Shown here one piece after another: positions 7,717 to 32,736 of a stretch of 38,726 nucleotides of DNA. Positions within the stretch are counted from its first letter, which is position 1. Each line of letters starts with the position of its first letter. This DNA comes from Pseudomonadota bacterium (GTDB lineage Bacteria; Pseudomonadota; Gammaproteobacteria; Steroidobacterales; Steroidobacteraceae). Both the position numbers and the translations under genes were made by a program. Below the pieces are notes generated by a model, which was not told the DNA's origin, ran no database searches, and saw nothing but the letters and a program-made list of their open reading frames with translations. The DNA lies in NCBI GenBank assembly GCA_021785405.1, contig JAJYFF010000025.1, forward strand, positions 1-38,726. The letters run 5' to 3'.

Positions 7717-7984
7717 GTGACGCCTCCCGCATCGCACTCGATGGGTCGGGCGAACCGGCTCAACGCGACGCCCCGACGGACGTTCGCGAAGCGCCACTCG
7801 CGAGTCTTACGATACTCCAGGCGAAATGCGAATCAACCTCGTTGGCCAAAGGCGACAGTCGGGCCGCTTGCGGCCCATTGCGCCGGCCCGGCGCGCCCCC
7901 GCGCGCGCCGCGAGTCGCCCGACCCCCCCGGTCCCCGCGCAAAGGATTTGCAATGCGCTGGAGCACGCCGGTAGATTGATCCGT

Positions 7985-8791
7985 ATGGACACACCCTTCG
8001 TTCTCGTCCTGCTCGCCTCGACGACCGGGGCGACGGAATGCCTCAGCATCGGGGTCCGCGTCGGCGAGACGCTCGGGCGCCCCGTGCAGATCGCCCACGT
8101 CGAGGTCGGCCCGGGCGCCATCATCCTGCCGTCGCAGGAGCAATTGAGCGAATACGAGGCCGAGCATTTCGCCGAGCGCGAGAAGGCCGAGACCGAGGCG
8201 GTCCGTGCGCTCGTCAGTGCATGGAATGCCAAAGCCGGCGCGAGCCTGCCGCTCGAGATCTTCAAGGGAGACGAATGGCGCGTGATGCGCCATTACCGCG
8301 GTCACGCGGCCCTGGTCGTGCTCGCGTCACCGCATACCCAGCCGATGGGGCATCGCGATACGCTGCGCGCAGCGCTGCTGCGTACCCGGCATCCGGTCGT
8401 GGTGGTGCCGCCCGGCTGGACCCAAGGGTTCGGTCGGCGCCTGGTGGTGGGCTGGGCCGATGCGCCACCGCTGCATCGCGCCATCGCGGCGTTCACGCCG
8501 TTCCTGGCCAAGGCCGAAGCGGTGGACGTGGTGGCCGTCGGCCAGGATCCGGCGGTGCTGGAGAAGGCGCGCGCCGTGCTCGGACCCATCGCCCCGGCCG
8601 CGCACTACCGGACGGTCGCACCCGAGGGTCGGCGGACCGCCCACGTGCTGCTCGCCGAGGCTCGCAGCGCGCAGGCCGACGGTCTCGTGGTGGGCGCGTT
8701 CCGCCGCGGCGAGATCCTCAACTGGCTCGTTCCGGGCACGTCGAGCCGTTTGATCCGCGAGACGACGCTCCCGTTGCTGATGTCCGCCTGA
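7985..8791 (+). CDS. Universal stress protein family (tandem Usp)
   Basis: This 268-residue protein is about twice the length of a single Usp domain. It starts MDTPFVLVLLASTTGATECL. The second half carries an RRLVVGWADAPPLHRAI strand-helix. It ends with DGLVVGAFRRGEILNWLVPG, then SSRLIRETTLPLLMSA, the usual C-terminal Usp nucleotide-loop region. Such proteins are cytoplasmic and often induced by stress or low oxygen. It is divergent from the kinase operon. An upstream TTGCAA-N18-TAGATT pair (7948-7977) could be a promoter, but it would start transcription almost at the ATG. The longer upstream frame (from 7826) lacks Usp similarity. Confidence 0.85.
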   Translation: MDTPFVLVLLASTTGATECLSIGVRVGETLGRPVQIAHVEVGPGAIILPSQEQLSEYEAEHFAEREKAETEAVRALVSAWNAKAGASLPLEIFKGDEWRVMRHYRGHAALVVLASPHTQPMGHRDTLRAALLRTRHPVVVVPPGWTQGFGRRLVVGWADAPPLHRAIAAFTPFLAKAEAVDVVAVGQDPAVLEKARAVLGPIAPAAHYRTVAPEGRRTAHVLLAEARSAQADGLVVGAFRRGEILNWLVPGTSSRLIRETTLPLLMSA

Positions 8792-10297: not shown

Positions 10298-11911
10298 TCA
10301 CGCGCTCAAACGCTTCACGCCCGCGACGAAGCGCGCGAGCGTCGTCGACAGCACGCCGCGCGGGAGCGTGACCTCGATCAGCTGGAATCGTCCACGGGCG
10401 GTGGCGGCCTTCTCGAGCGCCGCCTGGAGCTGCGCGCGCGTGTCGACCCGGACGCCGTCCCCGCCGAGCCCGGCCGCGATGCCCGCGTAGTCCCAGCGGT
10501 CGAGGTCGTTGAAGCGGGACTCGGGCTGGAAGGTGCGCAACATTTCCCAGCTCGCGTTGTTGAAGAGCACGACGATCGGGTCCCAGCCGTAGCGGCGGCA
10601 GTTGCCGAGTTCCCAGCCGGTCATCTGAAACGCACCGTCGCCGACCAGGATCAGCGGACGCTCGCCGGTGGCCGCTTGCAGTCCGAGTCCGGCCGGCACG
10701 CCGTAGCCCATCGTCGCGTAGTAACCTGGTGCGACCAGCGGCGTCGGCGCGATCTCCATCGCGGTGAACAGGCAATCGCCCATGTCGGATGCGATCGGCA
10801 TCCGGCCGTGGCGCGCGAGCAGGTCGTTGATCGCGGTCGCGACGTCGCTCGGAGAGATCGGCGCGTCGTCCGCGACGAGCCCGCGGGGGAAGGCTTGGCG
10901 CGCCGCCGGCCGCGGCCGTTCGATCGCACCGACCCGTTCGAGCATGCGGTCGACGAGCGCGGCGAGCGGGATCTCGGGATAGGTGTGGTAGCCGAGCGTC
11001 ACGCGGCCGTCGAGCGCCTGGATGGTCCTGCGCATGTCGATGCGAGTCTGCGAGACCGCGAAGTTGGTATCGCAGATGATCTCGCCGAGCAGGAACAACC
11101 CGTCGGATTCCTCGACCAGGCGGGTGATCTCGGGCGTGCCGGCGACGCCCATGTAGGTGCCGACCAGCATGTCCTCGTCGGCGAGCAGGCCGCGCCCCAT
11201 GAAGCCGGACACGACCGGTAGCCCCAGCCGTCGCGCGAGCTGCGCCACGCGGTGCTCCAGGCGGTAGCGGCGCACCTCGACGCCGACCATCAACACCGGC
11301 GCGCGCGCGCGCGACAGCCGCTCGAGGATGTCCTCGACACACGCGTCCAGGGCGTCAGGGTCGGGAACGGCCGGCGCGGCCGGCACCACGGTGGCGCATT
11401 CGACCGCGACCATGTCGCGCGGAATCTCGAGGTACACCGGTTCCGACCGGCGCAGACAGCTCGCGAGCACACGCGCGATCTCGGTCGGTGCTTGCGCCGC
11501 GTCGTCGAGCCGCGCTTGGTCGCAGGTGACTTCCTTGAAGATCTCGAACTGCGAGTCGATCCGCTTCGCTTGATGATGCAGCAGCAGTCCCGACCGCGCC
11601 TCGTCCTTGCCCGGCGCGCCCGACAGCACCACGAGCGGGACCTTCTCGGCGTACGCGGCCGCGACCGAATTGATCATGTTCAGCGCGCCGGCGCCGTAGG
11701 TCACCGCCGCGACCGCGGGCGCGCAGCCGATCCGCGCCGCCGCGTCGGCCGCGAACCCGACGCCGGGCTCGTGCGACAAGGTGTACAGCGGCAGGATCCC
11801 GGAGGATTCGATGATCCGGAAGTACGGCAGGGCGAAATCCCCGGGGATTCCGAAGATCAAGCGTGCGCCATGCGCCTGCAGCGCCTGCAGGAGCGATTCG
11901 GTGAGGTTCAT
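10298..11911 (-). CDS. ipdC: Phenylpyruvate / indole-3-pyruvate decarboxylase (ThDP enzyme)
   Basis: This 537-residue thiamine-diphosphate enzyme decarboxylates aryl 2-oxo acids to aldehydes. It closely resembles, from memory, the Azospirillum brasilense phenylpyruvate decarboxylase/IpdC over its whole length: FGIPGDFALPYFRIIE, TLSHEPGVGFAADAAAR (with the cofactor-activating Glu), LLLHHQAKRIDSQFEIFKE, DMGDCLFTAMEIAP and NNASWEMLRTFQPESRFNDL. The ThDP/Mg motif is GDGAFQ...NN. A role in indole-3-acetate or phenylacetate formation is known for the family. Its ATG overlaps the stop of the upstream persulfide dioxygenase (ATGA), so the two are translationally coupled, an odd metabolic pairing. A long upstream extension of the frame (to 12217) lies inside that gene and is not used. 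Confidence 0.9.
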   Translation of the reverse strand: MNLTESLLQALQAHGARLIFGIPGDFALPYFRIIESSGILPLYTLSHEPGVGFAADAAARIGCAPAVAAVTYGAGALNMINSVAAAYAEKVPLVVLSGAPGKDEARSGLLLHHQAKRIDSQFEIFKEVTCDQARLDDAAQAPTEIARVLASCLRRSEPVYLEIPRDMVAVECATVVPAAPAVPDPDALDACVEDILERLSRARAPVLMVGVEVRRYRLEHRVAQLARRLGLPVVSGFMGRGLLADEDMLVGTYMGVAGTPEITRLVEESDGLFLLGEIICDTNFAVSQTRIDMRRTIQALDGRVTLGYHTYPEIPLAALVDRMLERVGAIERPRPAARQAFPRGLVADDAPISPSDVATAINDLLARHGRMPIASDMGDCLFTAMEIAPTPLVAPGYYATMGYGVPAGLGLQAATGERPLILVGDGAFQMTGWELGNCRRYGWDPIVVLFNNASWEMLRTFQPESRFNDLDRWDYAGIAAGLGGDGVRVDTRAQLQAALEKAATARGRFQLIEVTLPRGVLSTTLARFVAGVKRLSA

Positions 11912-12972
11912 GGTCGTACGCTCGGGTGATGCTCGGCGATCCAGCGCAGCATGCCGCCGGCGAGGTTCGCGACGCGCTTGAAGTCGGCCTTCTGTAGCAA
12001 CACGGCCGCTTGCGCGGACCGCGAACCGCTCTGGCAGACGGTCACGATCGGTCGGTCGCGCTGGAGTTCGTCGGCCCGGGTGGCGAGTTGATCGAGCGGC
12101 AGGCAGCGCGCGCCGTCGATGTGTCCGGTGGGTCCTTGGAATTCCTCCGTCGAGCGCACGTCGAGGATCAGCACCTCGTCGGCGCACTCGGCGAGGCCCG
12201 CCGGATCGATTTCCCACAGACCGGCGACCGTGAACCGCAAGGGCGCCCAGTTCGGCCGATCTCGCGCCTCGACGCCGGGATCGGGCTCACCGAGCCGTAG
12301 GTTCGCGGGGACCGCCCGATCGATTTGCTTCGGGTGCGGCAGGTTCAGGTTGCGCATGTGGCCGAGGAAATCGCGCTCCGCGACGCCGTCCGCGATCCGG
12401 GGATTGAATCGGCGCTCCTCGGTGACGCTGCTGACGGTGAGGCCGCGATAATCGTGTGCGGGATACAGCAGGCAGGCATCCGGCAGGGTCAAGATGCGCT
12501 CGCGGATCGAGCGGAACATCGCGGCGGCGTCGCCCCGCTGAAAATCGGTGCGTCCGGTGCCGCGGATCAACAGACAGTCGCCGGTGAACGCCGCGCTCTC
12601 GTCGTCGAGCACGTAGGTCACGCAGCCCGGCGTGTGCCCGGGGGTCGCACGAACGCTCAGGTGCCGATGCCCGACCTGGATCCGATCCCCATCGGCGAGC
12701 GGCCGGTCGATGCTTGCCGCGCCGCTCGCCGCGGCGAGCGCGATCGGGCAACCGAATTCGCGTTTCAACCACCACGCCCCGGTCACGTGGTCGGCGTGCA
12801 CGTGGGTTTCGAGGATCGCGACCGGCCTGAGGTCGAGCTCGCGGACCAGCGCGGCGTCGCGTTGCCAGTGCTCGAGCACGGGGTCCACGATCACGGCGTC
12901 GCCGGTCGCGCGATCGCCGACCAGATAGGTGTAGGTCGAGGACGTTGGATCGAAGAGTTGCCTGAATAACAT
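11908..12972 (-). CDS. Persulfide dioxygenase-rhodanese fusion (ETHE1 type)
   Basis: The 354-residue protein has an N-terminal metallo-beta-lactamase-fold dioxygenase (1-245) with the HxHxDH site (His57, His59, Asp61, His62 in ETHVHADHVTG), ATPGHTPGCV and FTGDCLLIRGTGRTDFQRG. The last two are hallmarks of ETHE1-like persulfide dioxygenases rather than glyoxalase II. The C-terminal third is a rhodanese domain (VLILDVRSTEEFQGPTGHIDGA) with active-site Cys in VCQSGSRSAQA. Such fusions (PRF) oxidise glutathione persulfide to sulfite and then form or use thiosulfate. GGGA precedes the ATG by about 6 bases. It follows the GH39 gene by 29 bp and is coupled to ipdC. Downstream TauE/SafE could export the sulfite. 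Confidence 0.92.
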   Translation of the reverse strand: MLFRQLFDPTSSTYTYLVGDRATGDAVIVDPVLEHWQRDAALVRELDLRPVAILETHVHADHVTGAWWLKREFGCPIALAAASGAASIDRPLADGDRIQVGHRHLSVRATPGHTPGCVTYVLDDESAAFTGDCLLIRGTGRTDFQRGDAAAMFRSIRERILTLPDACLLYPAHDYRGLTVSSVTEERRFNPRIADGVAERDFLGHMRNLNLPHPKQIDRAVPANLRLGEPDPGVEARDRPNWAPLRFTVAGLWEIDPAGLAECADEVLILDVRSTEEFQGPTGHIDGARCLPLDQLATRADELQRDRPIVTVCQSGSRSAQAAVLLQKADFKRVANLAGGMLRWIAEHHPSVRP

Positions 12973-20801: not shown

Positions 20802-21609
20802 GCGGCCCGCCAAGCTGCCCGCGTCGCTCCCGGCGCTCGCGTGCCAGGGGCTCGTCGTCGGCTACGGGGATCGAGTCGTCCTCGACCGCGTGTCGGTCGA
20901 GATCCCGGGCGGATGCTGGACCGCGATCGTCGGGCCGAACGGCAGCGGCAAGTCGACGCTGTTGCGCGCGCTCGCCGGACTGCTGGTGCCGCGCGCCGGA
21001 ACGGTCCGGCTGCAGGGACGGCGTCTCGGGGAATGGCGCCGTCGCGAACGGGCACAACGCCTCGCCTGGCTCGCGCAGACGCCGGGCGCGACCGATCTGA
21101 CCGCGCGCGAAGTCGTCGCACTCGGCCGCTTCGCGCACGGCGGGTGGCTCGCGCACCGCGACGTCGACGACGATGCGGCGATCGATCGCGCGATGCGTGC
21201 GACGGGTTCGTCGCGCTGGGCCGGCCGACGCGTCTCGACGCTCTCCGGCGGCGAGCGCCAGCGTGTGCACCTCGCCCGCGTGCTCGCGGTCGAAGCCGCG
21301 GTGTTGCTGCTCGACGAACCCACCGCGCACCTCGATCCGCCGCATCAAGAGGACGTCGTGCGTCTGCTGCGCGCGCAGGCCCAGGGCTGCGGCGTCGCGG
21401 TCCTGAGCGCGATCCACGACCTGTCGCTCGCGCTCACCGCGGATCGCCTGATCGTGCTCGCCGAGGACGGCCTCGTCGGTCAGGGTACGGTCCGCGAGGC
21501 GCTGCGGGCCGACTGGCTGTCGCAGGCGTTCCGCCGCCGGATCGACGTCGTCGATCATCTCGGCGCGTGGCTGTGGCGCCCCGCGGTCGACGGCGTGCCG
21601 GATGCCTAG
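20794..21609 (+). CDS. btuD: Vitamin B12 ABC transporter ATP-binding protein
   Basis: The 271-residue ABC ATPase of the FecE/BtuD type has Walker A GPNGSGKST (47-55), Q-loop Gln in LAWLAQTPG, signature LSGGERQ (150-156), Walker B LLLDEP (171-176), D-loop HLD and the switch His in SAIHDL. It powers the BtuC channel. It overlaps btuC (8 bp) at its start and cobQ (8 bp) at its end, so the four-gene unit is tightly coupled and probably under the riboswitch. Confidence 0.93.
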   Translation: MPERPAKLPASLPALACQGLVVGYGDRVVLDRVSVEIPGGCWTAIVGPNGSGKSTLLRALAGLLVPRAGTVRLQGRRLGEWRRRERAQRLAWLAQTPGATDLTAREVVALGRFAHGGWLAHRDVDDDAAIDRAMRATGSSRWAGRRVSTLSGGERQRVHLARVLAVEAAVLLLDEPTAHLDPPHQEDVVRLLRAQAQGCGVAVLSAIHDLSLALTADRLIVLAEDGLVGQGTVREALRADWLSQAFRRRIDVVDHLGAWLWRPAVDGVPDA

Positions 21610-23056
21610 GCGCGGCCGCGCCGTGATGGTGTGCGGCACCACGAGCGGCGCGGGCAAGAGCTTCCTCGTGACCGCGCTCGCGCGCTGGTACGCGCGCGCC
21701 GGTTTCAAGGTGGCGCCGTTCAAAGCGCAGAACATGAGCAACAACGCGCGCGTCGTCGACGGCGGCGAGATCGGCAGTGCGCAGTATTTCCAGGCACTCG
21801 CGGCCCGCCGTGAACCCGACGTGCGCATGAACCCGGTGCTGCTGAAACCGCAGACCGCGACGTACAGCCAGCTGATCCTGCTCGGACGACGCCGCGACGA
21901 GATCGCCGCGGTGGACTGGCGCGAGCGCGAGCCCTTCCTGTGGCCGGCGATCCGATCGAGTCTCGATGCGCTGCTCGAGGAGAACGAACTCGTCGTGATC
22001 GAGGGCGCGGGCTCGCCCGCCGAGATCAACCTCCGGTCGAGCGATCTCGTGAACATGCGCGTCGCGGCGTACGCGCAGGCGGCGACCGTGATCGTCTGCG
22101 ACATCGATCGGGGCGGCGCGTTCGCGCACCTCTACGGCACCTACCAGCTGCTGTCGCCCGAGGAACGCGCGCTGGTCCGCGGCTTCGTGCTGAATCGCTT
22201 CCGCGGCGACCGGGCGCTGCTCGAGCCCGGTCCGCGGATGCTCGAGTCGTTGACCGGGGTGCCGACGCTCGCGGTGTTGCCGATGTGGCGCGAGCACGGA
22301 TTGCCGGAGGAGGACGGGTTGATCGGCGCGGCCGGCGCGGCCGCGGCCGCCGATGGCGACGCACCCGCGCGCACGATCGCGATCGTCGCCTACCCACAGA
22401 TCAGCAATCTCGACGAGTTCGCGCCGCTCGCGCGCGTCGCGAACACGCGGCTGCGCTGGGTCCGCGATCCGGGCGCGCTCGAGCGGGCGGACCTCGCGAT
22501 CCTGCCGGGCTCGAAGCATGTCGCGGCCGACCTCGACTGGCTGCGGCGGCGCGGGATCGACGCGGCGATCGCGGCGCACGTCGCGGCCGGCCGGCCGCTG
22601 CTCGCGATCTGCGGCGGGCTGCAGATGCTCGGCGCCGAGATCCGCGATCCGCACGGCGTCGAGGCGGCCGCGGCGGGGCTCGGGCTGCTCCCGTACGCGA
22701 CCGAGTTTGCCGCCGAGAAGCGATACCGGCGCGGTCGCTACCGGCTCACCGCGACCGGCGGGTGCTGGGGGGCGCTCGCGGAGGTCGAATTCGACGGTTA
22801 CGAAATCCGGCACGGCGAAACCGCGCCGACCGCGACGGCTCGCGAGGCGTCGCTCACGCCGGTGCTCGCGGCGGGCTGCGGGTGGCAGAGCGGCGCGACG
22901 CTCGCGCTGTACACGCACGGCCTGTTCGAGAACGCCGCGGTGATGCGGGCGTTGTTCGGCGCCGCGACGCCGACGCTCGACGACACCCTCGACGGGCTCG
23001 CCGATTTCGTCGACGCCGAGTTCGGTCGCGAGGCGCTGCTGCGGCTCGTCGCCTGA
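21602..23056 (+). CDS. cobQ: Cobyric acid synthase
   Basis: The 484-residue glutamine-dependent amidotransferase amidates four carboxylates (b, d, e, g) of adenosylcobyrinic a,c-diamide. The N-terminal dethiobiotin-synthetase-like ATPase carries CGTTSGAGKS (11-20) and FKAQNMSNNARV. The C-terminal class I glutaminase has the nucleophile Cys337 (AICGGLQMLG) and His439 (LYTHGLFEN). Length is normal for CobQ. It is the last gene of the riboswitch-led btuFCD operon. Pairing import with this step suggests salvage of incomplete corrinoids or a scattered cob pathway, since no other cob gene is in the window. The stop codon lies inside a perfect hairpin. Confidence 0.95.
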   Translation: MPRRGRAVMVCGTTSGAGKSFLVTALARWYARAGFKVAPFKAQNMSNNARVVDGGEIGSAQYFQALAARREPDVRMNPVLLKPQTATYSQLILLGRRRDEIAAVDWREREPFLWPAIRSSLDALLEENELVVIEGAGSPAEINLRSSDLVNMRVAAYAQAATVIVCDIDRGGAFAHLYGTYQLLSPEERALVRGFVLNRFRGDRALLEPGPRMLESLTGVPTLAVLPMWREHGLPEEDGLIGAAGAAAAADGDAPARTIAIVAYPQISNLDEFAPLARVANTRLRWVRDPGALERADLAILPGSKHVAADLDWLRRRGIDAAIAAHVAAGRPLLAICGGLQMLGAEIRDPHGVEAAAAGLGLLPYATEFAAEKRYRRGRYRLTATGGCWGALAEVEFDGYEIRHGETAPTATAREASLTPVLAAGCGWQSGATLALYTHGLFENAAVMRALFGAATPTLDDTLDGLADFVDAEFGREALLRLVA

Positions 23057-23076
23057 GCGCGGCGGTCCGCGCTCAG
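23053..23076. terminator. Symmetric hairpin between convergent cobQ and mttB-like genes
   Basis: CTGAGCGCGG-CGGT-CCGCGCTCAG is a perfect 10-bp stem with a 4-nt loop. It contains the TGA stops of both convergent genes in its two arms. There is no T-run, so it may terminate in both directions only weakly or with help. Confidence 0.5.
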
Positions 23077-24650
23077 CCCTGGGACGCGGCCGGCCGCATC
23101 GCTTCCCGCGGCAGGCGGATCGGCAGGCGCTCGCGGATCGCCGCGTCGACCGACTCCGGCAGATGCGTCGGGAAGTGGCTCGACAGGATCGACTCGAGCT
23201 TGCGCGTCGCGCGCTCGACGACGCTCGGCCGACCCTGGATCACCCATTCGTTCGGACTGGTGCGGTCGCCGACGCTCGGATACACGTATTCCCGCTGCAT
23301 CCGCTGCAGCGTCTGGTCGGCGCCGAGGAAGTGGCCCGGCCCCTCGAGGCAGACCTTGCGGATCGTCTCGAGCGACAGCGATTCGTCGCTGACGTCGATG
23401 CCCTTGATCGTACGTTGCACCGCGCCGATGATGTCGTTGTCGATGATCAGGCTCTCGAAGCTGAAGCCGAGCAGGCTCGCGAGCATGCCGGCCGATTCGT
23501 AGATCAGGTTCGCGCCGGCGTTGCCGACCAACGCGTGGTTGTACGCCTTCTCGTAGCCGGACTGAACGTCGGGCAGCTTCGCGTCGCTCATCCCCGAGGC
23601 GGTTCCGCCGGTCAGGTCGTAGTAGCGCGCGAGCTGGGCGCTCGCGGCCGACAGCAGCGCTTGTTCCGGGCTGCCGCCCGACATCGCGCCGGTCCGCAGA
23701 TCCGAGACGAAGCACCAGGTGCCGAAGATCGCGGGCGCGCCGGGCTTGATCGCGTTCACGTAGACCAGGCCTGCGAGGCATTCGGCGACTTCCTGCACCA
23801 GCGCCGCGCCGAGCGCGGCGGGCGCGGTCGCGCCGGCCTGGCCCGCCGACAACAGCAGCACCGGCATCCCGCCGCGCACCGCGGTCTCGAGGCACAGACA
23901 GGCGTCGTACGCGAACTTCAACGGCGGCACCACGAAGCAGTTCGACTGGCTCACGAACGGTCGTGCCCGCCATTTGTCCTCGCCGCCGGCGATCCAGTGG
24001 AACATCTCCAGGCTCGCCTCGAGGTGCTCCGGCCGGACCCAGCTCGTGCCGACGTGCTTGGTGGTGCCGGCGACGCACGCATAGGCGGTGTTCACGTCCA
24101 TTTCCATCGGGTTCACGAGATCCCGACAGACGACGGATCGCTGGTAGAAGTGCAGGTGCTCGAGGGTGTCCACGACGCGCGCGATGTCGTACAGATCCCG
24201 GGTCGTCGATTCCCGATACTCACCGGTCTTCGCATTCACGATGTGCACCGCCGCCCCGGCGGTGCCGAAGTATACGCGGTTGTCCCAGGGCTCCAGGTCG
24301 TGCTTCGGGTCCTGGCCGTGCAACACGAAGCGGCGGCCCGCCTTCGCGAGCGTGTCCTCGACGAGCGCCCGCGGGAACACCAGTCGACCCTGCGGCGTCA
24401 GTTGCGCGCCCGCCTTGGTCATGTACTCGATGCCCGACGGGGTCGCGTCGGCGAGGCCGATCTGCTCGAGCACGTCGAGCGCGGCCCGGTGAATCCGTAC
24501 CACGTCCGCATCGTTGAGCGGGTGATATCGGCCGCCCGGCATCCCCGGCACGACCGGACGGAGGTTCTCGGGCAACGGTGCGGCGCGGGCGGCATGGCGC
24601 GCGGCACGCGCACCGCCACGACGGACGAGAGTCGATTCGGCTTCGCTCAT
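23073..24650 (-). CDS. MttB-superfamily (quaternary amine) corrinoid methyltransferase, non-pyrrolysine
   Basis: The 525-residue protein belongs to the trimethylamine methyltransferase MttB superfamily: ALDVLEQIGLADATPSGIEY near the N terminus, VYFGTAGAAVHIVNAKTGEY, TYAC-like NTAYACVAGTTKHVGTSWV, GGSPEQALLSAASAQLARYY and GPGHFLGADQTLQRM near the end. No in-frame TAG is used, so it is a non-pyrrolysine member. Characterised relatives demethylate glycine betaine (MtgB), proline betaine, carnitine or gamma-butyrobetaine, passing the methyl group to a corrinoid protein. No such corrinoid protein or RamA is in the window. It is divergent from the TmpAB-like genes and adjacent to B12 uptake genes, so a betaine substrate fits. 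The ATG at 24650 is chosen; a start at 24695 is also open. Confidence 0.88.
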   Translation of the reverse strand: MSEAESTLVRRGGARAARHAARAAPLPENLRPVVPGMPGGRYHPLNDADVVRIHRAALDVLEQIGLADATPSGIEYMTKAGAQLTPQGRLVFPRALVEDTLAKAGRRFVLHGQDPKHDLEPWDNRVYFGTAGAAVHIVNAKTGEYRESTTRDLYDIARVVDTLEHLHFYQRSVVCRDLVNPMEMDVNTAYACVAGTTKHVGTSWVRPEHLEASLEMFHWIAGGEDKWRARPFVSQSNCFVVPPLKFAYDACLCLETAVRGGMPVLLLSAGQAGATAPAALGAALVQEVAECLAGLVYVNAIKPGAPAIFGTWCFVSDLRTGAMSGGSPEQALLSAASAQLARYYDLTGGTASGMSDAKLPDVQSGYEKAYNHALVGNAGANLIYESAGMLASLLGFSFESLIIDNDIIGAVQRTIKGIDVSDESLSLETIRKVCLEGPGHFLGADQTLQRMQREYVYPSVGDRTSPNEWVIQGRPSVVERATRKLESILSSHFPTHLPESVDAAIRERLPIRLPREAMRPAASQG

Positions 24651-24814
24651 GCAACGGATCCTCGATTGGTGTGACGCGCAGGATGCCTCGGCCACCCTCC
24701 CCGAGCAAGGGGGGGCGCAGCGCCGCCGCGTCGTCCGCGCGGTCCGCCGGGGCGGATTTCGCTACACTGGTGGCGCCGCACCACCGGCGCCGCATGGGGT
24801 CGAACGAGACCGCG

Positions 24815-25966
24815 ATGGACGTGATCACGTGCAACGAGGATCTGCAGCGGCTCGCGCGCCGGCGCGTGCCGCGGATGTTCTACGACTACGCCGATTCGGG
24901 ATCCTGGACCGAGGGCACCTATCGCGCGAACAGCGCCGATCTCGCCCGCTTGAAACTGCGCCAGCGGGTCGCGATCGACCTCGAGCATCGTTCGCTGCGC
25001 ACCCAGATGATCGGCCAGGACGTCGCGATGCCGGTCGCGCTCGCGCCGACGGGGCTCACCGGGATGCAATGGGCGGACGGCGAGATCCTCGCGGCGCGGG
25101 CCGCCGCCGCGTTCGGCGTGCCGTTCACGCTGTCGACGATGAGCATCTGCTCGATCGAGGACGTCGCCGCGCAGTCCCCGGCGCCGTTCTGGTTCCAGCT
25201 GTACGTTATGCGGGATCGGGACTTCGTCGAGCGCTTGATCGACCGGGCGAAGGCGGCCGGATGCTCCGCGTTGATGCTGACCCTGGACCTGCAGATCCTC
25301 GGCCAGCGTCACAAGGACGTGAAGAACGGCCTGTCGGCGCCGCCGCGACCGACGCTCGGCAACCTCCTGAACCTCGTGACCAAGCCCCGTTGGTGCTTGG
25401 GGATGGCGCGCACGCCGCGGCGCAGCTTCGGCAACATCGTCGGGCACGTACGCGGCGTGGAGGACATGGCGTCGCTCAGCGCGTGGACGAACACCCAGTT
25501 CGATCCGCACCTCAGCTGGAAGGACGTGGAGTGGATCAAGCGCCGCTGGGGTGGAAAACTCATCCTGAAAGGCATCCTCGACGCGGGCGATGCGCGCCTC
25601 GCGGCCGAGACCGGGGCCGACGCGCTGATCGTCTCCAATCACGGCGGACGCCAGCTCGACGGCGCACCATCGACGATCGAGGCGTTGCCGGCGGTGGTCG
25701 ATGCGGTCGGATCGCGGACCGAAGTGTGGATGGACGGCGGCGTCCGCAGCGGACAGGACGTGCTGAAGGCGATCGCGCTCGGCGCGCGCGGCACGCTGAT
25801 CGGTCGCGCGTTCCTCTACGGTCTCGGCGCGCTCGGCGAGGCCGGGGTGCGCCGGTGTCTGGAACTGATCCGCAACGAGCTCGACCTGACGATGGCGTTC
25901 TGCGGGTTCACCGACATTCGCGCGGTCGACCGGACGGCGCTCTACCGACCGCCGCCGTCGCCGTGA
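24815..25966 (+). CDS. FMN-dependent alpha-hydroxyacid dehydrogenase (LldD type)
   Basis: The 383-residue TIM-barrel flavoenzyme resembles L-lactate dehydrogenase/glycolate oxidase: RRRVPRMFYDYADSGSWTE, PVALAPTGLTGMQWADGEIL, PFWFQLYVMRDRDFVERLI and DLQILGQRHKDVKNGLSAPP. The catalytic His and Arg lie in VSNHGGRQLDGAPST and the FMN phosphate site in MDGGVRSGQDVLKAIALGA. It oxidises a 2-hydroxy acid to the 2-oxo acid. The ATG at 24815 gives the usual family N terminus; 24794 is seven codons upstream and also possible. A TACACT word at 24763-24768 may be a -10 box. Its stop overlaps the GTG of the next gene, so it belongs to the same operon as the two oxygenases. Confidence 0.88.
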   Translation: MDVITCNEDLQRLARRRVPRMFYDYADSGSWTEGTYRANSADLARLKLRQRVAIDLEHRSLRTQMIGQDVAMPVALAPTGLTGMQWADGEILAARAAAAFGVPFTLSTMSICSIEDVAAQSPAPFWFQLYVMRDRDFVERLIDRAKAAGCSALMLTLDLQILGQRHKDVKNGLSAPPRPTLGNLLNLVTKPRWCLGMARTPRRSFGNIVGHVRGVEDMASLSAWTNTQFDPHLSWKDVEWIKRRWGGKLILKGILDAGDARLAAETGADALIVSNHGGRQLDGAPSTIEALPAVVDAVGSRTEVWMDGGVRSGQDVLKAIALGARGTLIGRAFLYGLGALGEAGVRRCLELIRNELDLTMAFCGFTDIRAVDRTALYRPPPSP

Positions 25967-27111
25967 GCGCGGGGTCGCCGATCGGCCGACTCGACTGGAC
26001 CGCGCGCCGCGTCGCGGTCGAATGGGCGGACGGGGCGCGCGCGGACTTCGCGAGCATCTGGCTGCGCGACAATCGGCGCGAGGACCGCGATCCGCACAGC
26101 GGCCAGCGCCTGATCGACGTCGTCGACCTGCCCGCGCACCCCCGGATTCGATCGGCACGGCTCGTGGACGGCGCGTTGCTCGTCGACTGGGAGGACGGGG
26201 CCGCGGCCACCCGCTACGACAGCGATTGGCTGCGCCGGCATTCGAGCGCCGCGGGGGCGGCCGAGGAGATCGCGCGGAAACCCTGGCTCGAGGGCGCCGC
26301 GCTCGATCCGGGCCGCGATCTCGCGTGGCTGGACTTCGAGACGCTGCGGGGCGGCGGGATGCCGCGCGCCGCCTGGCTCGCGCGGCTGTGGCAAGACGGG
26401 CTCGCGTTCCTGCGCGGGGTGCCGACGACGGACGAGGGCATCCTGCAGGCGATGGCGTCGGTCGGCCGGATCGCCGAGACGAATTACGGCGCGGTGTTCG
26501 ACGTGCGTTCCGTGCCGCGGCCGGAGAATCTCGCGTACTCGGATCTCGGGCTCGGCTTGCACACGGACAATCCCTATCGCGAACCCGTTCCCGGATTCCA
26601 GGCCTTGCACGCGCTCGTCACCTCGCCCGACGGCGGCGAGAGCGTGTTCGCCGACGGCCTCGCGCTCGCCCTGCACCTGCGCGAGCTCGCGCCGGAGGAC
26701 TTCGACCGGCTCGCGCGCACGCCGGTGCCGTTTCATTATCGCAGCGCCGACGTCGACTTGCGCGCACGCCGACCGATCATCCAACTGGCCTGCGATGGCG
26801 CGGTCGCCGCCGTGCACTACAACAATCGCTCGATCGCGCCCGTGCCGCTCGCCGCCGACGAGGCCGAACGGTTCTACGCGGCGTATCGGCGCTTCGGGGG
26901 CCTGCTGCGCGAGGCGCGGTACCGCGTGACCTGGCGATTGCGCGACGGCGACCTGGTCGTGTTCGACAACCAACGGGTGCTCCACGGCCGTACGGCCTTC
27001 TCCTCGGCGCGGCACCCGCGGCACCTGCGGGGCTGCTACCTGACCCGCGACAGCGTTCAGTCGGCGGCGGCGTGCGCGCGACGCGCGGCGACCGAAGGGC
27101 GCCGGACGTGA
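25963..27111 (+). CDS. Gamma-butyrobetaine-hydroxylase-type Fe/2OG oxygenase, TmpA-like
   Basis: The 382-residue protein starts at a GTG overlapping the previous stop (GTGA). The N-terminal GBBH-like domain (1-95) has SIWLRDN and SGQRLIDVVDLP but lacks the zinc-binding cysteines of human BBOX1. The TauD/TfdA-type catalytic domain has Fe ligands His200 and Asp202 (GLHTDNPYREPVPGFQ) and His341 (VLHGRTAF). Arg356 (RHLRGCYL) should bind 2-oxoglutarate. Family members hydroxylate gamma-butyrobetaine or trimethyllysine. TmpA, a family member, hydroxylates 2-trimethylaminoethylphosphonate at C1. Because a PhnZ/TmpB-type gene overlaps its 3' end, the TmpA role is favoured over carnitine synthesis. 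Confidence 0.85.
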   Translation: MSAGSPIGRLDWTARRVAVEWADGARADFASIWLRDNRREDRDPHSGQRLIDVVDLPAHPRIRSARLVDGALLVDWEDGAAATRYDSDWLRRHSSAAGAAEEIARKPWLEGAALDPGRDLAWLDFETLRGGGMPRAAWLARLWQDGLAFLRGVPTTDEGILQAMASVGRIAETNYGAVFDVRSVPRPENLAYSDLGLGLHTDNPYREPVPGFQALHALVTSPDGGESVFADGLALALHLRELAPEDFDRLARTPVPFHYRSADVDLRARRPIIQLACDGAVAAVHYNNRSIAPVPLAADEAERFYAAYRRFGGLLREARYRVTWRLRDGDLVVFDNQRVLHGRTAFSSARHPRHLRGCYLTRDSVQSAAACARRAATEGRRT

Positions 27112-27659
27112 GCGTCGTCGACGAGATCCTGGCGATCTACGCCGCGCGCGGTGCGGGCGCCTACTTCGGCGAGCGCGTCTCGATGCGCGAACACGGGTTG
27201 CAGGCCGCCCATTTCGCCGCGGCCGCCGGCGCGCCCCCGATGCTCGTTGCCGCGGCGCTGTTGCACGACGTCGGGCACCTGATCGTCGACGTGCCCGACG
27301 ACATCGGCGCGTGGACTCAAGACGCGTGCCACGAGGCGATCGGCGCGCGCTGGCTCGCCGAGCGCTTCGCGAGCGGGGTCAGCGAGCCCGTGCGGCTGCA
27401 CGTCGCGGCGAAGCGGTATCTGTGCGCGACGAATCCCGGGTATTTCGCCCGGCTGAGTCCGGCGTCGGTGACCACGCTCGCGCTGCAAGGCGGACCAATG
27501 TCCGCGGACCAAGTGCGGACCTTCGAGACCGAGCCGCACCATCGCGAGGCGGTGCGGCTGCGCCTCTGGGACGATCAGGGCAAGGTCGAGGGGCTGAAAA
27601 CCCGTGAACTCGGCGACTATCGAGACCTGCTCGAATCGCTGACGATCCGGCGTCGCTGA
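27108..27659 (+). CDS. PhnZ/TmpB-type HD-domain mixed-valent di-iron oxygenase
   Basis: The 183-residue HD protein starts at a GTG overlapping the upstream stop by 4 bp. It lines up with PhnZ along its length: AYFGERVSMREHGLQAAHFA, LVAAALLHDVGHLIVDVP, HVAAKRYLCAT, TLALQGGPM and LWDDQGK. From memory, PhnZ uses Tyr24, Glu27, His34, His58, Asp59, His80, His104 and Asp161. Here the equivalents are Tyr19, Glu22, His29, His53, Asp54, His75, His98 and Asp155. Tyr19 and Glu22 are the lid pair that marks the C-P-cleaving oxygenases and sets them apart from hydrolases. Paired with a TmpA-like hydroxylase it should cleave a 1-hydroxyphosphonate, TmpB giving glycine betaine and phosphate. Confidence 0.87.
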   Translation: MSVVDEILAIYAARGAGAYFGERVSMREHGLQAAHFAAAAGAPPMLVAAALLHDVGHLIVDVPDDIGAWTQDACHEAIGARWLAERFASGVSEPVRLHVAAKRYLCATNPGYFARLSPASVTTLALQGGPMSADQVRTFETEPHHREAVRLRLWDDQGKVEGLKTRELGDYRDLLESLTIRRR

Positions 27660-27684
27660 CCCGCCGAGCGCGGCGCCGACCGAC

Positions 27685-28464
27685 TCAAAAGGCGCCCGGG
27701 AACGCGCCGCCGTCGATCAACAGGCTCTGGCCGGTCACGTAGCCGGCGTACTGGCTGCACAGGAAGGCGCACGCGTGACCGAATTCAGCGGGCGTCCCGA
27801 ACCGCTTCGCGGGGATCGCGGCCATGTCCTCACCCGCGACCGTCGATTCGTCCGCGCCGCGTCGGCGCGCGGACGCGGCGATGCCTTGCCGCAGCCGGCG
27901 CGTATCGAAGCTGCCGGGCAACAAATTGTTGATCGTGACGTTACGGTGAGCGACCGTGCGCGCGATGCCGGCGACGAAGGCGGTCAGACCGGCCCGCGCG
28001 CCGCTCGACAGATCGAGCCCCGCGAGCGGCATCTTCACGCTGACCGAGGTGATGTTCACGATCCGGCCGAAGCCGCGCGCGGCCATCCCGTCGAGCACCT
28101 GCTGGATGAGCTCGATCGGCGTCACCATGTTCATCGTGACGCCGGCGAGCATCGCGGCGCGATCGAGCTCGCGAAAATCACGGAACGGCGGGCCGCCGTT
28201 GTTGTTCACGAGGATGTCGGGCTCCGGACACGCCGCGAGCAGCGCGGCTTGCCCGCGGGGGTCGCCGAGATCGGCCGTGACCGGCACGACCGGCACCCCG
28301 TGCAGCCGATGAATCTCGGCGGCGGTTTCCGCGAGCACGGCCGGATCGCGTCCGTTGATCACCAAGGAGACGCCCGCTTCGGCGAGCGCGAGTGCGCAGC
28401 CCTTGCCGAGCCCGCGGCTCGACGCGCACACGATCGCGCGCTTGCCCCGAATACCGAGATCCAT
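27685..28464 (-). CDS. Atypical SDR family protein lacking the Tyr/Lys catalytic pair
   Basis: The 259-residue Rossmann protein has a cofactor motif altered to CASSRGLG (13-20) and NNNGGPP in place of NNAG. The usual YxxxK is replaced: the segment reads GLDLSSGARAGLTAFVAG, with Ser and Arg at the expected Tyr and Lys positions. I recall a subgroup of annotated 3-oxoacyl-ACP-reductase-like proteins with GLSNGARAGLTGFV at the same place, so this is a shared feature and not a local mutation. Ser in VNITSVSVK is kept. Dehydrogenase activity by the standard mechanism is unlikely. The gene is convergent with the HD oxygenase gene (25 bp apart). Confidence 0.85.
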   Translation of the reverse strand: MDLGIRGKRAIVCASSRGLGKGCALALAEAGVSLVINGRDPAVLAETAAEIHRLHGVPVVPVTADLGDPRGQAALLAACPEPDILVNNNGGPPFRDFRELDRAAMLAGVTMNMVTPIELIQQVLDGMAARGFGRIVNITSVSVKMPLAGLDLSSGARAGLTAFVAGIARTVAHRNVTINNLLPGSFDTRRLRQGIAASARRRGADESTVAGEDMAAIPAKRFGTPAEFGHACAFLCSQYAGYVTGQSLLIDGGAFPGAF

Positions 28465-28554
28465 AGCCCACCTCGCCGTTGACGTCGCAGCGGTAAGATA
28501 CCGCAGTTGTCGGTCCGCGGAGAATCCGCGTCGCGCCGATCCTTCAGCCGCCGT

Positions 28555-29661
28555 TCACGAGGCCGCGGCGTCCGGCAGCGCCCGGTAGTCGGTGTAGCCT
28601 TCGGCGCCGCCGCCGTAGAACGTCGCCATGACCGGCGTGGTCAACGGCGCGTCGATGCGCAAACGGTGCACGAGATCCGGATTCGCGATGAACGGCTTGC
28701 CGAACGCGACCATGTCGGCGTGGCCCTGCGCGACCGCCTCGATCGCCGTCGCGCGGGTGTAGCCGTTGTTGACGACCCAGGCGCCGCCGGGATTCGAGTG
28801 CTTGTAGCGGCGTCGTAGCGCCTCGTAGTCGAACGGTGCGACGTCGCGGGCACCCCCGGTCGCCCCTTCGATCACGTGCACGTAGGCGAGCCGGAGCGGC
28901 GCGAGCCGGTCGATGTAGTGCTCGAACAAGCCTTGCGCGTCGCTGTCCTGGCCCGCGTCGTTCACGGGACTCACCGGCGAAATGCGCAGGCCCGTGCGCC
29001 CGCCACCGATTTCCGCGGCCACCGCGGCCACGGCCTCGACCGGAAAGCGAACCCGGTTCTCTCGCGAGCCGCCGTACTCGTCATGCCGATCGTTGATGCT
29101 GTCGCGCAGGAACTGCTCGAGCAGGTAGCCGTTCGCGGAATGCACCTCGACACCGTCGAAGCCGGCGGCGATCGCGTTGCGGGCGGCGCGCGCGTACGCC
29201 TCGACGATGCCCGGGAGTTCCGTGCGATCGAGCGCGCGCGGCGCGGAGACCGCTTCGAACCCCTTGGCCGTGAAGGTCTTCGCACGCGCCGGGCGCGCCG
29301 TGCTCGACACCGGCTGAGCGCCGCCCGGCAGCAACGAACAATGCGAAATGCGGCCGACGTGCCACAACTGCAACACGATCTTGCCGCCCTTGCCGTGCAC
29401 CGCATCGCAGACATGCCGCCAACCCTCGACTTGCTCGGCGCTGTGAATGCCCGGGGTATCCAGGTAACCCTGCGCGGTCGGGCTGATCTGGGTCGCCTCC
29501 GACACGATCAGTCCGGCGCTCGCGCGCTGGCCGTAGTAGGTCGCCATCAACGGCGTCGGCACCTGGTTCGGGCCCGCGCGATCGCGCGTCAACGGCGCCA
29601 TCACCACGCGGTTGGCGGCCTCGATATCACCGAATCGGATCGAATCGAACAAGCTGGGCAT
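28555..29661 (-). CDS. nemA: Old yellow enzyme family alkene reductase (NemA-like)
   Basis: The 368-residue FMN TIM-barrel enzyme reduces activated C=C bonds with NAD(P)H. Visible blocks are NRVVMAPLTRDRAGPNQVPT, ASAGLIVSEATQISPTAQGY, LQLWHVGRISH, the substrate-binding pair His/Asn in VEVHSANGYLLEQFLRD, SINDRHDEYGGSRENRVRFP, and ADMVAFGKPFIANPDLVHRL at the FMN phosphate site. Length is normal for NemA/GTN reductase. It stands alone on the minus strand, 90 bp from the atypical SDR. No TetR-type NemR is next to it. Confidence 0.92.
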   Translation of the reverse strand: MPSLFDSIRFGDIEAANRVVMAPLTRDRAGPNQVPTPLMATYYGQRASAGLIVSEATQISPTAQGYLDTPGIHSAEQVEGWRHVCDAVHGKGGKIVLQLWHVGRISHCSLLPGGAQPVSSTARPARAKTFTAKGFEAVSAPRALDRTELPGIVEAYARAARNAIAAGFDGVEVHSANGYLLEQFLRDSINDRHDEYGGSRENRVRFPVEAVAAVAAEIGGGRTGLRISPVSPVNDAGQDSDAQGLFEHYIDRLAPLRLAYVHVIEGATGGARDVAPFDYEALRRRYKHSNPGGAWVVNNGYTRATAIEAVAQGHADMVAFGKPFIANPDLVHRLRIDAPLTTPVMATFYGGGAEGYTDYRALPDAAAS

Positions 29662-29837
29662 CGTCGCGGCATCCTGTCAGGCGTCTGGGGAGCGAGGGGC
29701 GCGGCTGCGCCTTTACCCCTCGGCGACCATTATAGCCGTCGGTCGCACCGCTCCGGGTCGCGACATTCGAGATCGCGCAGGTACAATCCGCGGCTGTCCA
29801 TCGCACGAGGGATCGGCGCGCGCCGGTCGTCGATCCA

Positions 29838-30704
29838 ATGACCATCTTCCACATCGTGATCCTCGCGTTCATCCAGGGCATGGCCGAGCTGCTGCCGGTC
29901 TCGAGCTCGGCGCACGTGGTCGTCGCCGAGGAAGTCATGGGACTCGATCCGTCGTCGCCGCCGCTGACCTTGCTGCTCGTGATGCTGCACACGGGGACGA
30001 TGTTCGCCGTGATGGTGTATTTCTGGCGCCAGTGGCGGGCGACGTACCTGAAGGATCTGGCGTCGTTCAAGCGCATCACCGGGCCGATCATCGTCGCGAC
30101 GGTGATCACCGCGGTCGTCGGCGAGGTGTTGATCAAGATCATCGAGAAGACCGTATTGCGCCACGTCGTGCATGCCCAGATCGAGGATCTGTTCAGCCAT
30201 CTGGAGTGGATTTCGCCCGCGTTGGCGGTCGGCGGCGTGCTGATCCTCGTGACCGGACTGCGCGATCGGCGCCAGCGCGGCGGCGTGGAGCTCGATCGCG
30301 ACCCGGATCTGCGGCAATCGAGCCTGATCGGCGCGATGCAGGGACTTTGCTTGCCGTTTCGCGGGTTCTCGCGTTCGGGTGCGACGATCTCGGCCGGCAT
30401 GCTGCTCGGCATCTCCAAGGCACGGTCCGAAGCGTTCAGCTTCGCGCTCGCGGTCGTGCTCACCCCACCCGTGGTCGTACGCGAGCTGTGGCGCTTGATG
30501 CAGGCGAAACACCGCCACCCGAACCTCGATTTCAGCTCGGTCGTCGGTCTGTCGGTCCTCGGCATGGCCGTCGCGTTCGTCGCGGGGCTGCTCGCGCTGC
30601 GCTGGCTGAGCGGATGGCTGGAGCGCGGACGCTGGCACCTCTTCGGGATCTACTGCCTCGTCGCGGCCGTCGTCGTCGGGTATCTGTACACGCGCGGTTA
30701 CTAG
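29838..30704 (+). CDS. uppP: Undecaprenyl-diphosphatase (BacA type)
   Basis: The 288-residue inner-membrane protein recycles undecaprenyl diphosphate to the monophosphate carrier used for peptidoglycan and O-antigen synthesis. The signature QGMAELLPVSSSAHVVVAEE is at residues 13-32. The second signature PFRGFSRSGATISAGM is here with Arg-Gly-Phe where Pro-Gly-Val/Ser is common. Several hydrophobic helices follow. It overlaps the stop of the convergent MFS gene by 4 bp (CTAG shared by both stops). Confidence 0.92.
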   Translation: MTIFHIVILAFIQGMAELLPVSSSAHVVVAEEVMGLDPSSPPLTLLLVMLHTGTMFAVMVYFWRQWRATYLKDLASFKRITGPIIVATVITAVVGEVLIKIIEKTVLRHVVHAQIEDLFSHLEWISPALAVGGVLILVTGLRDRRQRGGVELDRDPDLRQSSLIGAMQGLCLPFRGFSRSGATISAGMLLGISKARSEAFSFALAVVLTPPVVVRELWRLMQAKHRHPNLDFSSVVGLSVLGMAVAFVAGLLALRWLSGWLERGRWHLFGIYCLVAAVVVGYLYTRGY

Positions 30705-31903
30705 CCGGCGCCGGCGGTCGGTGGCGGCAGGTCCCAGTGCAATTCCGCGATCGGCGGAATCATCACCAGCCAGCCGTACAAGCCGAGCAGGCTGACCGCG
30801 GCCGCGAGCACGAATGCCCAGGTGAAACGGCCGGTCGCGGCGATCAGGAAGCCGGTCACGGCCGGCGCGACGACCCCCGCGAAGTTCCCCATCGAGTTCT
30901 GCACGCCGACCCAGCGTCCCGCCGCCCGGGGTCCCGCGAGGATCTGCGGGATCGCGAACACGCCCGGGGATGCTGCACCGGTGAGCGCTTGATACACGTA
31001 GATCAACAGGATCGCGACCGGTCGCGGTCCGATCGCGATCCCCAGCATGCAGACGACGGCGCCGGCGTGGGCGGCGGCCATCAGCGATTTGTACGCCCAG
31101 TTGCGCGAGCCGCCGCGCGTGACGTGGCGATCGATCGCCCAGCCCGCGGCGAGCGCGCTCAGCGCCGTGACCACGTAAGCGCTGCCGGCGACCTCCGCCA
31201 TCCCCGTCGTCGAGAAACCCCGGTCACGCACGAGGTAGTACGGCATCCAGGACAGCAGGAAGTAATAGCCGTAATTGCTCGAGAAGTGTCCGAGGCTCGC
31301 GCCCCACAACGCCCGCTTGCGCAAGATCTGCCCAAAGCCCGGGTCGCCCGCCCGGCTCGGTTGCGGACGGGCGTGCCGCTTGCCGACCAGGCGCCACGGC
31401 AACAGCCAGAGGAGCGACAGTGCGCCGAAGCCGACGAACGTGACACGCCAGTCGAATTGGGCGATCGCGATCCCGCCGAAATACGTGCCGAACGCGGGTC
31501 CTATCAGGTAAGCGAAGCCCACGATCCCGTTCGCGATCCCGAGTTGATCGACCGCCACGTTCACCGCGAGCAGCTTCGATACGCACGGGAAGCCGACGCT
31601 CTCGCCGAGTCCGAGCAGCAAGCGCAATGCCAGCATCGTCGCGAACGCATGGGCGATGCCGAACAACATCGTGGCCGTCGCCCACACGACGAGCCCGGCC
31701 ACGAGCACACGCCCGGCGCCGAAGCGCTCGGCGATCCACCCGATCGGGATCTGGATCAGCGCGTAGGTCCAGAAGAACGCGGACAGCAGCACGCCGAGCT
31801 CGCCCGTCGACAGGTGCGTTTGCGCCTGCACGTGATCGGCCGCCGCCGGCAACAAGCCGCGGTCCACGTAATTGACGAACAGAATCGCGGCCAGCAGGAC
31901 CAC
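30701..31903 (-). CDS. MFS transporter (ACS type), paralogue of the one at 15401-16702
   Basis: The protein is about 400 residues with twelve membrane helices: LFVNYVDRGLLPAAADHV, GLGESVGFPCVSKLLAVNVA, GASLGHFSSNYGYYFLLSWM and GPRAAGRWVGVQNSMGNFAG all match the same places in the other MFS protein. The start is uncertain. There is no ATG between the first helix and 32143, and that distant ATG would add 80 Arg-rich residues inside the aldolase gene. GTG at 31903 is reported, but it trims helix 1. A CTG at 31960 overlapping the aldolase stop is an alternative. It follows the class II aldolase in one operon. Confidence 0.85.
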   Translation of the reverse strand: MVLLAAILFVNYVDRGLLPAAADHVQAQTHLSTGELGVLLSAFFWTYALIQIPIGWIAERFGAGRVLVAGLVVWATATMLFGIAHAFATMLALRLLLGLGESVGFPCVSKLLAVNVAVDQLGIANGIVGFAYLIGPAFGTYFGGIAIAQFDWRVTFVGFGALSLLWLLPWRLVGKRHARPQPSRAGDPGFGQILRKRALWGASLGHFSSNYGYYFLLSWMPYYLVRDRGFSTTGMAEVAGSAYVVTALSALAAGWAIDRHVTRGGSRNWAYKSLMAAAHAGAVVCMLGIAIGPRPVAILLIYVYQALTGAASPGVFAIPQILAGPRAAGRWVGVQNSMGNFAGVVAPAVTGFLIAATGRFTWAFVLAAAVSLLGLYGWLVMIPPIAELHWDLPPPTAGAG

Positions 31904-31956
31904 CAGCCAGGTATAAGCCGAGCCGGCGGTACCGACCGGCGTGGAGCGCGCGCGCG

Positions 31957-32736
31957 TCAGGCGGCGTAATCCGGTTCGTCGCGATCGAGCAGGCGTTTCA
32001 GCGCCGCGAAATGCAGTTCCACGCGCTCCTGCCCGTCGACCTTCGTTCCGCCGCGAAACTGATCGACGGTCCTGCGGACGACATCGGCAGGGATCGGCCG
32101 CAACCGACGACCCGTCGACAGCGCGAGCACCTGGGCCTGGCAAGCGCGCTCGAGGAAGTACAGCCGCTCGAACGCCTCGGGCACGGTCCGGCCGATCACC
32201 AGGGCGCCATGATTGCCCATCATCAGCACCGACTTGTCGCCGAGGACGCGCGCGAGCCGCTCGCCCTCGCGGCGATCGAACGCGAGGCCGTTATAGTCCG
32301 TGTCGTAGGCGATGTCCTCGTGGAATACCAGGGCGCTCTGCACGGCCATCTCCAGCCGGGGATCCTCCAGCATGCACAACGCGGTGGCGTAGGGCATGTG
32401 GGTGTGCAAAACGCAGCGCGCACGGGGTGCGATGCGGTGGACCGGCAGGTGGATGTGGAGCGCCGTATCCTCGACCGGCCCTGCGCCGGCCCGAACGTTG
32501 CCGTCGAAGTCGACCTCCATGAAGTGGGAGGCGCGCACCTCCGACCAATGCAGGCCGAACGGCGCGAGATAGAATCGATCTGGCCATCCCGGCACCAGCA
32601 GCGTCAGGTGGTTATCGATGCCCTCGTTGAGACCGAAGCGCGCCGCCAGCCGATGGCAAGCCGCCAAATCGATCCGGGCACGTCGTGCCGCTTCCGCATC
32701 CACGAAAGGACGATCTTGATCGGGCTGCGCGCTCAT
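31957..32736 (-). CDS. Class II aldolase/adducin family protein
   Basis: The 259-residue protein has the class II aldolase fold: LAARFGLNEGIDNHLTLLVP near residue 40, metal-binding His in VLHTHMPYATALCML, Glu/His in VFHEDIAYD, and LMMGNHGALVIGRTVPEAFE. Members include fuculose/rhamnulose-phosphate aldolases and decarboxylating or unknown enzymes. The substrate cannot be told here. GGGAGG lies 6 bases before the ATG at 32736, so this start is preferred to 32757. It is first in an operon with the MFS transporter, suggesting an acid that is imported and then split. This is the last gene with the high-GC codon use. Confidence 0.85.
   Translation of the reverse strand: MSAQPDQDRPFVDAEAARRARIDLAACHRLAARFGLNEGIDNHLTLLVPGWPDRFYLAPFGLHWSEVRASHFMEVDFDGNVRAGAGPVEDTALHIHLPVHRIAPRARCVLHTHMPYATALCMLEDPRLEMAVQSALVFHEDIAYDTDYNGLAFDRREGERLARVLGDKSVLMMGNHGALVIGRTVPEAFERLYFLERACQAQVLALSTGRRLRPIPADVVRRTVDQFRGGTKVDGQERVELHFAALKRLLDRDEPDYAA

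Follow-up and report, generated by a model that had tools for sequence, protein, structure and literature searches.

A predicted TmpA/TmpB-type oxygenase gene pair beside a probably resident LldD-type dehydrogenase gene in a Steroidobacteraceae genome

The conversion of 2-trimethylaminoethylphosphonate (TMAEP) by TmpA and TmpB consists of hydroxylation at C1 followed by oxidative cleavage of the carbon-phosphorus (C-P) bond to glycine betaine and phosphate, as set out in passages of PMC10574752 and PMC8177086. The two enzymes of Leisingera caerulea (PDB 6npb-6npd and 6npa) are encoded by adjacent genes for a 2-oxoglutarate (2OG) oxygenase and an HD-domain oxygenase. Two-step chemistry of this type is also known from PhnY*/PhnZ, acting on 2-aminoethylphosphonate (AEP), and from GmPhnY/GmPhnZ, acting on methylphosphonate. 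Such oxygenase pairs were reportedly found by Rajakovich in 2019 in over 350 species. We analyzed a 38,726-nt stretch of DNA from a gammaproteobacterium of the Steroidobacteraceae (assembly GCA_021785405.1, contig JAJYFF010000025.1; the whole stretch is called the window below), in which a gene for an LldD-type dehydrogenase is followed by genes for a 2OG oxygenase and an HD protein. Judging from sequence comparisons, the latter two genes (25963-27659) probably form a TmpA/TmpB-type two-gene cassette for oxidative C-P cleavage, at a probability of roughly 75%, and the LldD gene in front would be a bystander. The kind of pathway is already known, and the dehydrogenase does not bear out the novelty that the initial annotation of this DNA proposed for it.

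The three genes lie on the same strand, and both the LldD/TmpA-like and the TmpA-like/TmpB-like junctions are 4-bp GTGA overlaps. The gene trio and the overlaps on either side of the 2OG oxygenase gene, as first described, are therefore real. In Pfam scans the LldD-type protein (FMN_dh, 455.2 bits) and the 2OG enzyme (TauD, 161.4 bits) scored far above chance, and the N-terminal domain of the 2OG enzyme resembled that of gamma-butyrobetaine hydroxylase (GBBH). The HD protein gave zero Pfam matches.

The nearest solved structure of the 2OG enzyme in a PDB search was TmpA (6npb, E 5.9e-72), followed by DfmD (1.2e-38) and BBOX1 (4.5e-34), with sequence identities of 38% to TmpA and 27% to BBOX1. 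The phosphonate contacts of TmpA are N187, N287 and R288 according to the consulted part of PMC9296572. All three are kept in the window protein as N189, N288 and R289; for this comparison the PDB chain was inferred to be shifted by 6 residues against the published TmpA numbering, which gives the expected N, N and R. The position of R288 is occupied by Ala in BBOX1, by Thr in DfmD and by Arg in the window protein. The Fe ligands H200, D202 and H341 and the cage positions Tyr/Phe/Tyr/Tyr also agree with TmpA. BBOX1 has the overall fold and the aromatic cage positions in common with the window enzyme, the comparison being made with what we take to be the residue numbers of the BBOX1 cage. When a predicted structure of the 2OG enzyme (mean pLDDT 86.3, pTM 0.73) was submitted to Foldseek, TmpA 6npb ranked first by E-value.

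For the HD protein a PDB search returned TmpB (6npa, E 2.1e-37; 44% identity) and then PhnZ (6.2e-29), with nothing besides these two under E 0.1. The protein also scored higher with the TmpB model (186.1 bits) than with the G. maris PhnZ1 model (156.8 bits). The YxxE loop, described for this type of HD oxygenase in passages of PMC8177086, is present as YFGE, and the H..HD..H..H..D diiron ligand columns are filled by H29, H53, D54, H75, H98 and D155, as in TmpB and PhnZ. The alignment thus confirms Tyr19, Glu22 and all metal ligands in the PhnZ spacing that the initial annotation had pointed out. The protein likewise has a QGGPM motif in common with PhnZ/TmpB. The HD fold, the YxxE loop and the predicted two-step chemistry link the pair to PhnY*/PhnZ and GmPhnY/GmPhnZ as well, but the HD protein scores higher with TmpB and the 2OG enzyme is of the GBBH/TmpA type.

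The pathway predicted from these features would begin with entry of TMAEP into the cell through a carrier. The 2OG enzyme would then hydroxylate TMAEP at C1, next to phosphorus. O2-dependent cleavage of the C-P bond in the resulting compound would be the task of the HD enzyme, for which a mixed-valent diiron site with Tyr19/Glu22 as its gate is predicted, and would presumably yield glycine betaine and phosphate.

To place both proteins among their relatives, genome contigs were scanned for the 2OG enzyme in a pattern-based, non-exhaustive way that confirmed 87 loci. The best 80 of 87, the window and locus L111 made up the 82 loci compared, and 56 of these carry a TmpB-like gene by tblastn. Among the TmpB-positive loci, the equivalents of N187 and R288 were each kept in 55 of 56; the exceptions were L105, which ends before the position of N187, and L058, which has a gap at R288. 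A tree of the 2OG enzymes with one enzyme per locus (82 rows: three references plus the 79 enzymes that were 300 aa or longer, after removal of three shorter ones) placed the window in a 34-row clade of 31 TmpB-paired and 3 other rows with support 100. TmpA clustered with 14 TmpB-paired rows in a group of 15 (support 89). A 60-row fork without BBOX1 contained the window as well as TmpA; it had a support of 90, was not starred and had a partly unresolved inner order. Pairing with TmpB did not define one clean clade and took 6 changes on the tree. In the HD tree (76 rows) the window protein and TmpB shared a 46-row clade that excluded PhnZ (SH-aLRT 88, not starred, with long-branch warnings). 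Neither of the sequence outcomes that the initial annotation named as speaking against a TmpA/TmpB-like pair was seen, namely clustering of the 2OG enzyme with true gamma-butyrobetaine hydroxylases and of the HD protein with inositol oxygenase or hydrolases. The TmpA/TmpB-like character proposed at the outset is hence supported by the closest structures, the conserved residues and both trees.

A TmpA-like protein was matched at E 1e-60 or better in 33 of the 150 genomes searched of the family, and several relatives with TmpA-like loci come from bog and palsa samples according to their record names. TmpB/PhnZ-like HD genes also occur at G004:C9:53171-53710, G034:C15:125650-126183 and G028:C344:8901-9425, in genomes that gave no TmpA relative at E 1e-60.

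Several observations weigh against the assignment. The 2OG enzyme reached 360.5 bits on the NCBIfam TmpA model NF049936 (cut-off 400), on which a Nocardia homologue scored 411.4 bits, and the HD protein remained at 186.1 bits on the TmpB model NF049941 (cut-off 300), both values lying below the equivalog cut-offs. On the Phn-HD model TIGR03276 the HD protein, with 204.5 bits, was far above chance and just under the cut-off of 214.6. Three members of a different 2OG class with Asp at TmpA N187 obtained 314.4 to 352.3 bits on the TmpA model, which makes the score of this model non-discriminating when taken alone. In most comparisons the predicted structure had a higher TM-score with BBOX1 (0.79-0.85) than with TmpA (0.78-0.80), the PhnZ branch in the HD tree was long and its placement unsure, and searches of the window's genome with PF12974, OPA-type and TIGR00881 queries identified no phosphonate importer.

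Because both proteins score below the curated cut-offs, TMAEP is a substrate that we infer, and the pair is not filed as certified TmpA/TmpB members. An alternative that we consider unlikely is that the same two-step oxidative chemistry serves another substrate, such as AEP, its mono- or dimethylated forms or another quaternary phosphonate. Besides the scores, the identities of 38% and 44% to the characterized proteins would fit this, as would the variable residue (N, S, D, T, E) at the position of TmpA N287 among TmpB-paired relatives, and 2OG/HD pairs or fusions are known for AEP, methylphosphonate and aminopropylphosphonate from passages of PMC10574752. However, the four cage residues and the three phosphonate contacts of TmpA are all kept in the window protein, and its HD partner is closer to TmpB than to PhnZ. 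It is barely credible that the 2OG enzyme is a true GBBH of carnitine synthesis accompanied by a phosphohydrolase. The GBBH-like N-terminal domain and the TM-scores to BBOX1 would agree with such a function, but the enzyme reached 287.7 bits on the gamma-butyrobetaine dioxygenase model TIGR02409, under the cut-off of 414.75, and has Arg where BBOX1 has Ala. A Pfam HD match is absent from the HD protein, yet it has YxxE and QGGPM in common with PhnZ/TmpB, the only two proteins retrieved from the PDB below E 0.1. A true BBOX plus hydrolase was rejected on these residues and scores.

The initial annotation suggested that the overlapping LldD-type gene may extend the pathway. An enzyme of this family could oxidize the hydroxyphosphonate or its wrong enantiomer, so that the three genes would be one extended module; an α-hydroxy substrate is chemically plausible, and the 4-bp LldD-TmpA overlap recurs in three of the four genomes with both genes (window, G019 and L029/G005), which would fit cotranscription and weighs against a bystander. 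The LldD-type protein scored 428.4 bits on NF008398 (cut-off 376), placing it in the broader subfamily, and 375.6 bits on the L-lactate dehydrogenase model NF033901, under the cut-off of 550. Orthologues of LldD at 81-92% were found in seven sister genomes of the genus, with the following genes readable on each contig. TmpAB lies between LldD and an SDR gene in four of the eight LldD genomes (window, G019, G005 and G002). In G015, G022, G012 and G008 the LldD stop is separated from the SDR gene end by 25, 25, 33 and 47 bp, respectively, with no TmpAB between, and LldD is open over 377-380 codons in these four. LldD thus does not track the pair across genomes. In G002, moreover, an EAL-domain gene separates LldD from TmpA.

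Linkage gave a similar result. Only four of the 56 TmpB-positive loci, all of one subclade, have LldD on the same stretch, namely the window, G019 and L028/L029 (matching G002/G005); it was absent from the stretch examined in the other 52, nine of which reach <1.5 kb upstream. Counting only the 54 fetched loci (45 with 1.5 kb or more of sequence in front of the pair, nine with less), two hold LldD, both in this same subclade, and outside it no examined pair had this LldD nearby. According to passages of PMC8177086, the TmpB cofactor is regenerated without an external reducing system. Passages of PMC10590968 give the two-oxygenase route as the only one described for TMAEP and no FAD-dependent enzyme as known on quaternary amines; they contain nothing on FMN-type LldD enzymes. 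A role of LldD in the pathway is therefore highly improbable, and the empty sites and missing linkage led us to reject it. Since LldD keeps its place in relatives without the pair, it is probably a mere neighbour. Most likely it is a resident of the locus outside the pair, an unrelated hydroxyacid dehydrogenase that would at most share a transcript. In this respect the window pair differs from Leisingera TmpA/TmpB.

The TmpAB cassette would accordingly be an element placed between resident LldD and SDR genes, both of which sister genomes retain where the cassette is absent. A four-protein tree (LldD, SDR, OYE, BacA) gave the order (G019,(window,(G015,G022))) with starred support, on which three losses explain the TmpAB pattern versus four changes from a pair-less ancestor, counted by hand. 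Old presence with repeated losses is thus favoured as likely rather than demonstrated, because the G012/G002 fork is unresolved, the G008 fork has a support of 87/94 and no more than 27-29% of the alignment is filled in the two outgroup rows.

A candidate for the carrier is found in relatives of the pair. Of 34 loci in the wider clade around the window, 28 have a gene for an organophosphate:phosphate antiporter (OPA)-type MFS permease beside TmpA, as detected by gene clustering and tblastn; the 34 comprise 32 of the 34 tree rows (window and L111 left out) and the fragments L060 and L105, added by identity. Among the remaining six loci, L057 and L105 are truncated by a contig end, L038 and L045 have another MFS gene, and L028 and L029 are of the LldD type. 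The permease is downstream of the pair in L027. In L032 the OPA-type gene spans 6718-8004. AepP, a permease known to carry AEP, belongs to the OPA family and is related to GlpT (consulted part of PMC8316502), and the permease of the relatives can be likened to it via family models, since it fits GlpT/PgtP-like models below their cut-offs; one representative scanned had 158.2 bits on TIGR00881 (cut-off 407.75). For L048, where a 788-aa frame suggested a fusion of permease and TmpA, this reading was discarded: matches to the permease gene (6722-8001, upstream of TmpA) are spread over more than one frame, making a frameshift or a broken, decayed gene likelier. Other transport genes accompany two actinobacterial loci: L070 (Nocardia) has a gene for a PhnT2-like ATP-binding protein (412.5 of 457.7 bits) and a GntR/UTRA regulator, and L086 (Actinomycetota, like L070) encodes a PhnD-like binding protein (199.9 of 261.1) and PhnE (237.9, above 216.7). 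Such phosphonate-type permeases or regulators adjoining homologous pairs count in favour of a TmpA/TmpB function.

The window itself is different. No recognised phosphonate transporter was present among the nine proteins scanned with family libraries (21602-32143), which agrees with the absence of a nearby transporter reported initially and is untypical, since 28 of 34 related loci have the OPA-type gene. The window's MFS protein fits the PgtP-type model TIGR00881 weakly (cut-off 407.75). No close OPA permease copy was found in the window's genome at E 1e-10 with a query positive in 14 of 60 relatives; a TIGR00881 search of this genome gave sub-cut-off MFS matches only, and neither a PhnD-type binding protein (PF12974; control positive in 12/14) nor PhnJ of C-P lyase (control positive in E. 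coli only, 1/14) was detected. As the assembly is 96% complete, these genome-level absences are not proof. A limited literature search, which does not establish novelty, recognised no paper on an OPA permease linked to TmpAB or on the second HD family described below.

The coordinates of the trio and of neighbouring genes are collected in Table 1. On its left side the trio is flanked by the divergent MttB-superfamily gene, which a cobyric acid synthase gene adjoins; on the right the family library scan gave SDR, OYE-type, undecaprenyl-diphosphate phosphatase and MFS genes.

Table 1. Features of the LldD-TmpAB locus and its neighbours in the window
Feature	Position	Strand	Details
LldD-type FMN-dependent alpha-hydroxyacid dehydrogenase	24815-25966	+	383 aa, ATG 24815 to TGA 25966
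TmpA-like Fe(II)/2OG oxygenase, GBBH/TauD-type	25963-27111	+	382 aa, GTG start, TGA 27111
TmpB-like HD-domain diiron oxygenase	27108-27659	+	183 aa, GTG start, TGA 27659
MttB-superfamily methyltransferase, divergent neighbour	23073-24575	-	500 aa; PF06253 363.8 bits
SDR-family oxidoreductase, right border of TmpAB cassette	27685-28464	-	PF13561
MFS gene	30704-32143		TIGR00893 167.8 bits; TIGR00881 111.3 bits

The MttB-superfamily gene has no internal stop. The nearest solved relatives of its product are trimethylamine and glycine betaine methyltransferases, and the protein scored 387.5 bits on trimeth_pyl, below the cut-off of 525. Glycine betaine, which TmpAB is predicted to release, might be a substrate of the enzyme. 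That in this subclade, which yielded no close copy of the usual permease, the two systems form one route, in which TmpAB would cleave TMAEP to glycine betaine and phosphate and a corrinoid-dependent MttB-type enzyme would demethylate the betaine, is very unlikely. A 48% paralogue is encoded at G000:C14:40675-42159, and the gene also stands beside LldD in the TmpAB-less genomes G015, G012 and G022.

The comparison of loci also revealed a second HD family of ~190 aa, with 18 genes in 18 loci (e.g. L076:9114-9692, L087:9146-9733 and L049:3254-3820). All diiron ligands are present in these proteins; YxxE and QGGPM are missing. Its profile matched PhnZ (3e-11) and TmpB (5e-9) in the PDB and nothing else under E 0.5, and an AlphaFold model (pLDDT 92) gave E about 1e-6 for PhnZ and TmpB and 0.11 for myo-inositol oxygenase. 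Each gene adjoins or lies close to one for a TmpA-like 2OG enzyme, and the residue at TmpA N187 is Asp in all loci but L091 (17 of 18), where Ser occupies it in the higher-scoring of two 2OG genes. The family and the Asp-type enzyme are a candidate for an uncharacterised 2OG/HD-oxygenase pair. Among 60 relatives of the window, 29 also carry the HD family, which was not found in the window's genome. At L049:3254-9670 a tandem contains genes for the second-type HD protein, a hydroxyisobutyrate-dehydrogenase-like protein, a GntR/PhnR-like regulator, the Asp-type 2OG enzyme, an OPA-type permease, TmpA and TmpB, with a carnitine-dehydrogenase-like gene (11189-12646) downstream.

The locus offers a caution that gene overlap is no warrant for pathway membership. 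At this one site the predicted TmpAB pair is a cassette that some genomes have and others lack, and it would place an oxidative phosphonate pathway in uncultured Gammaproteobacteria, with the OPA-type gene of relatives as a candidate TMAEP permease. If the link to the MttB-type enzyme were true, C-P cleavage would feed one-carbon metabolism.

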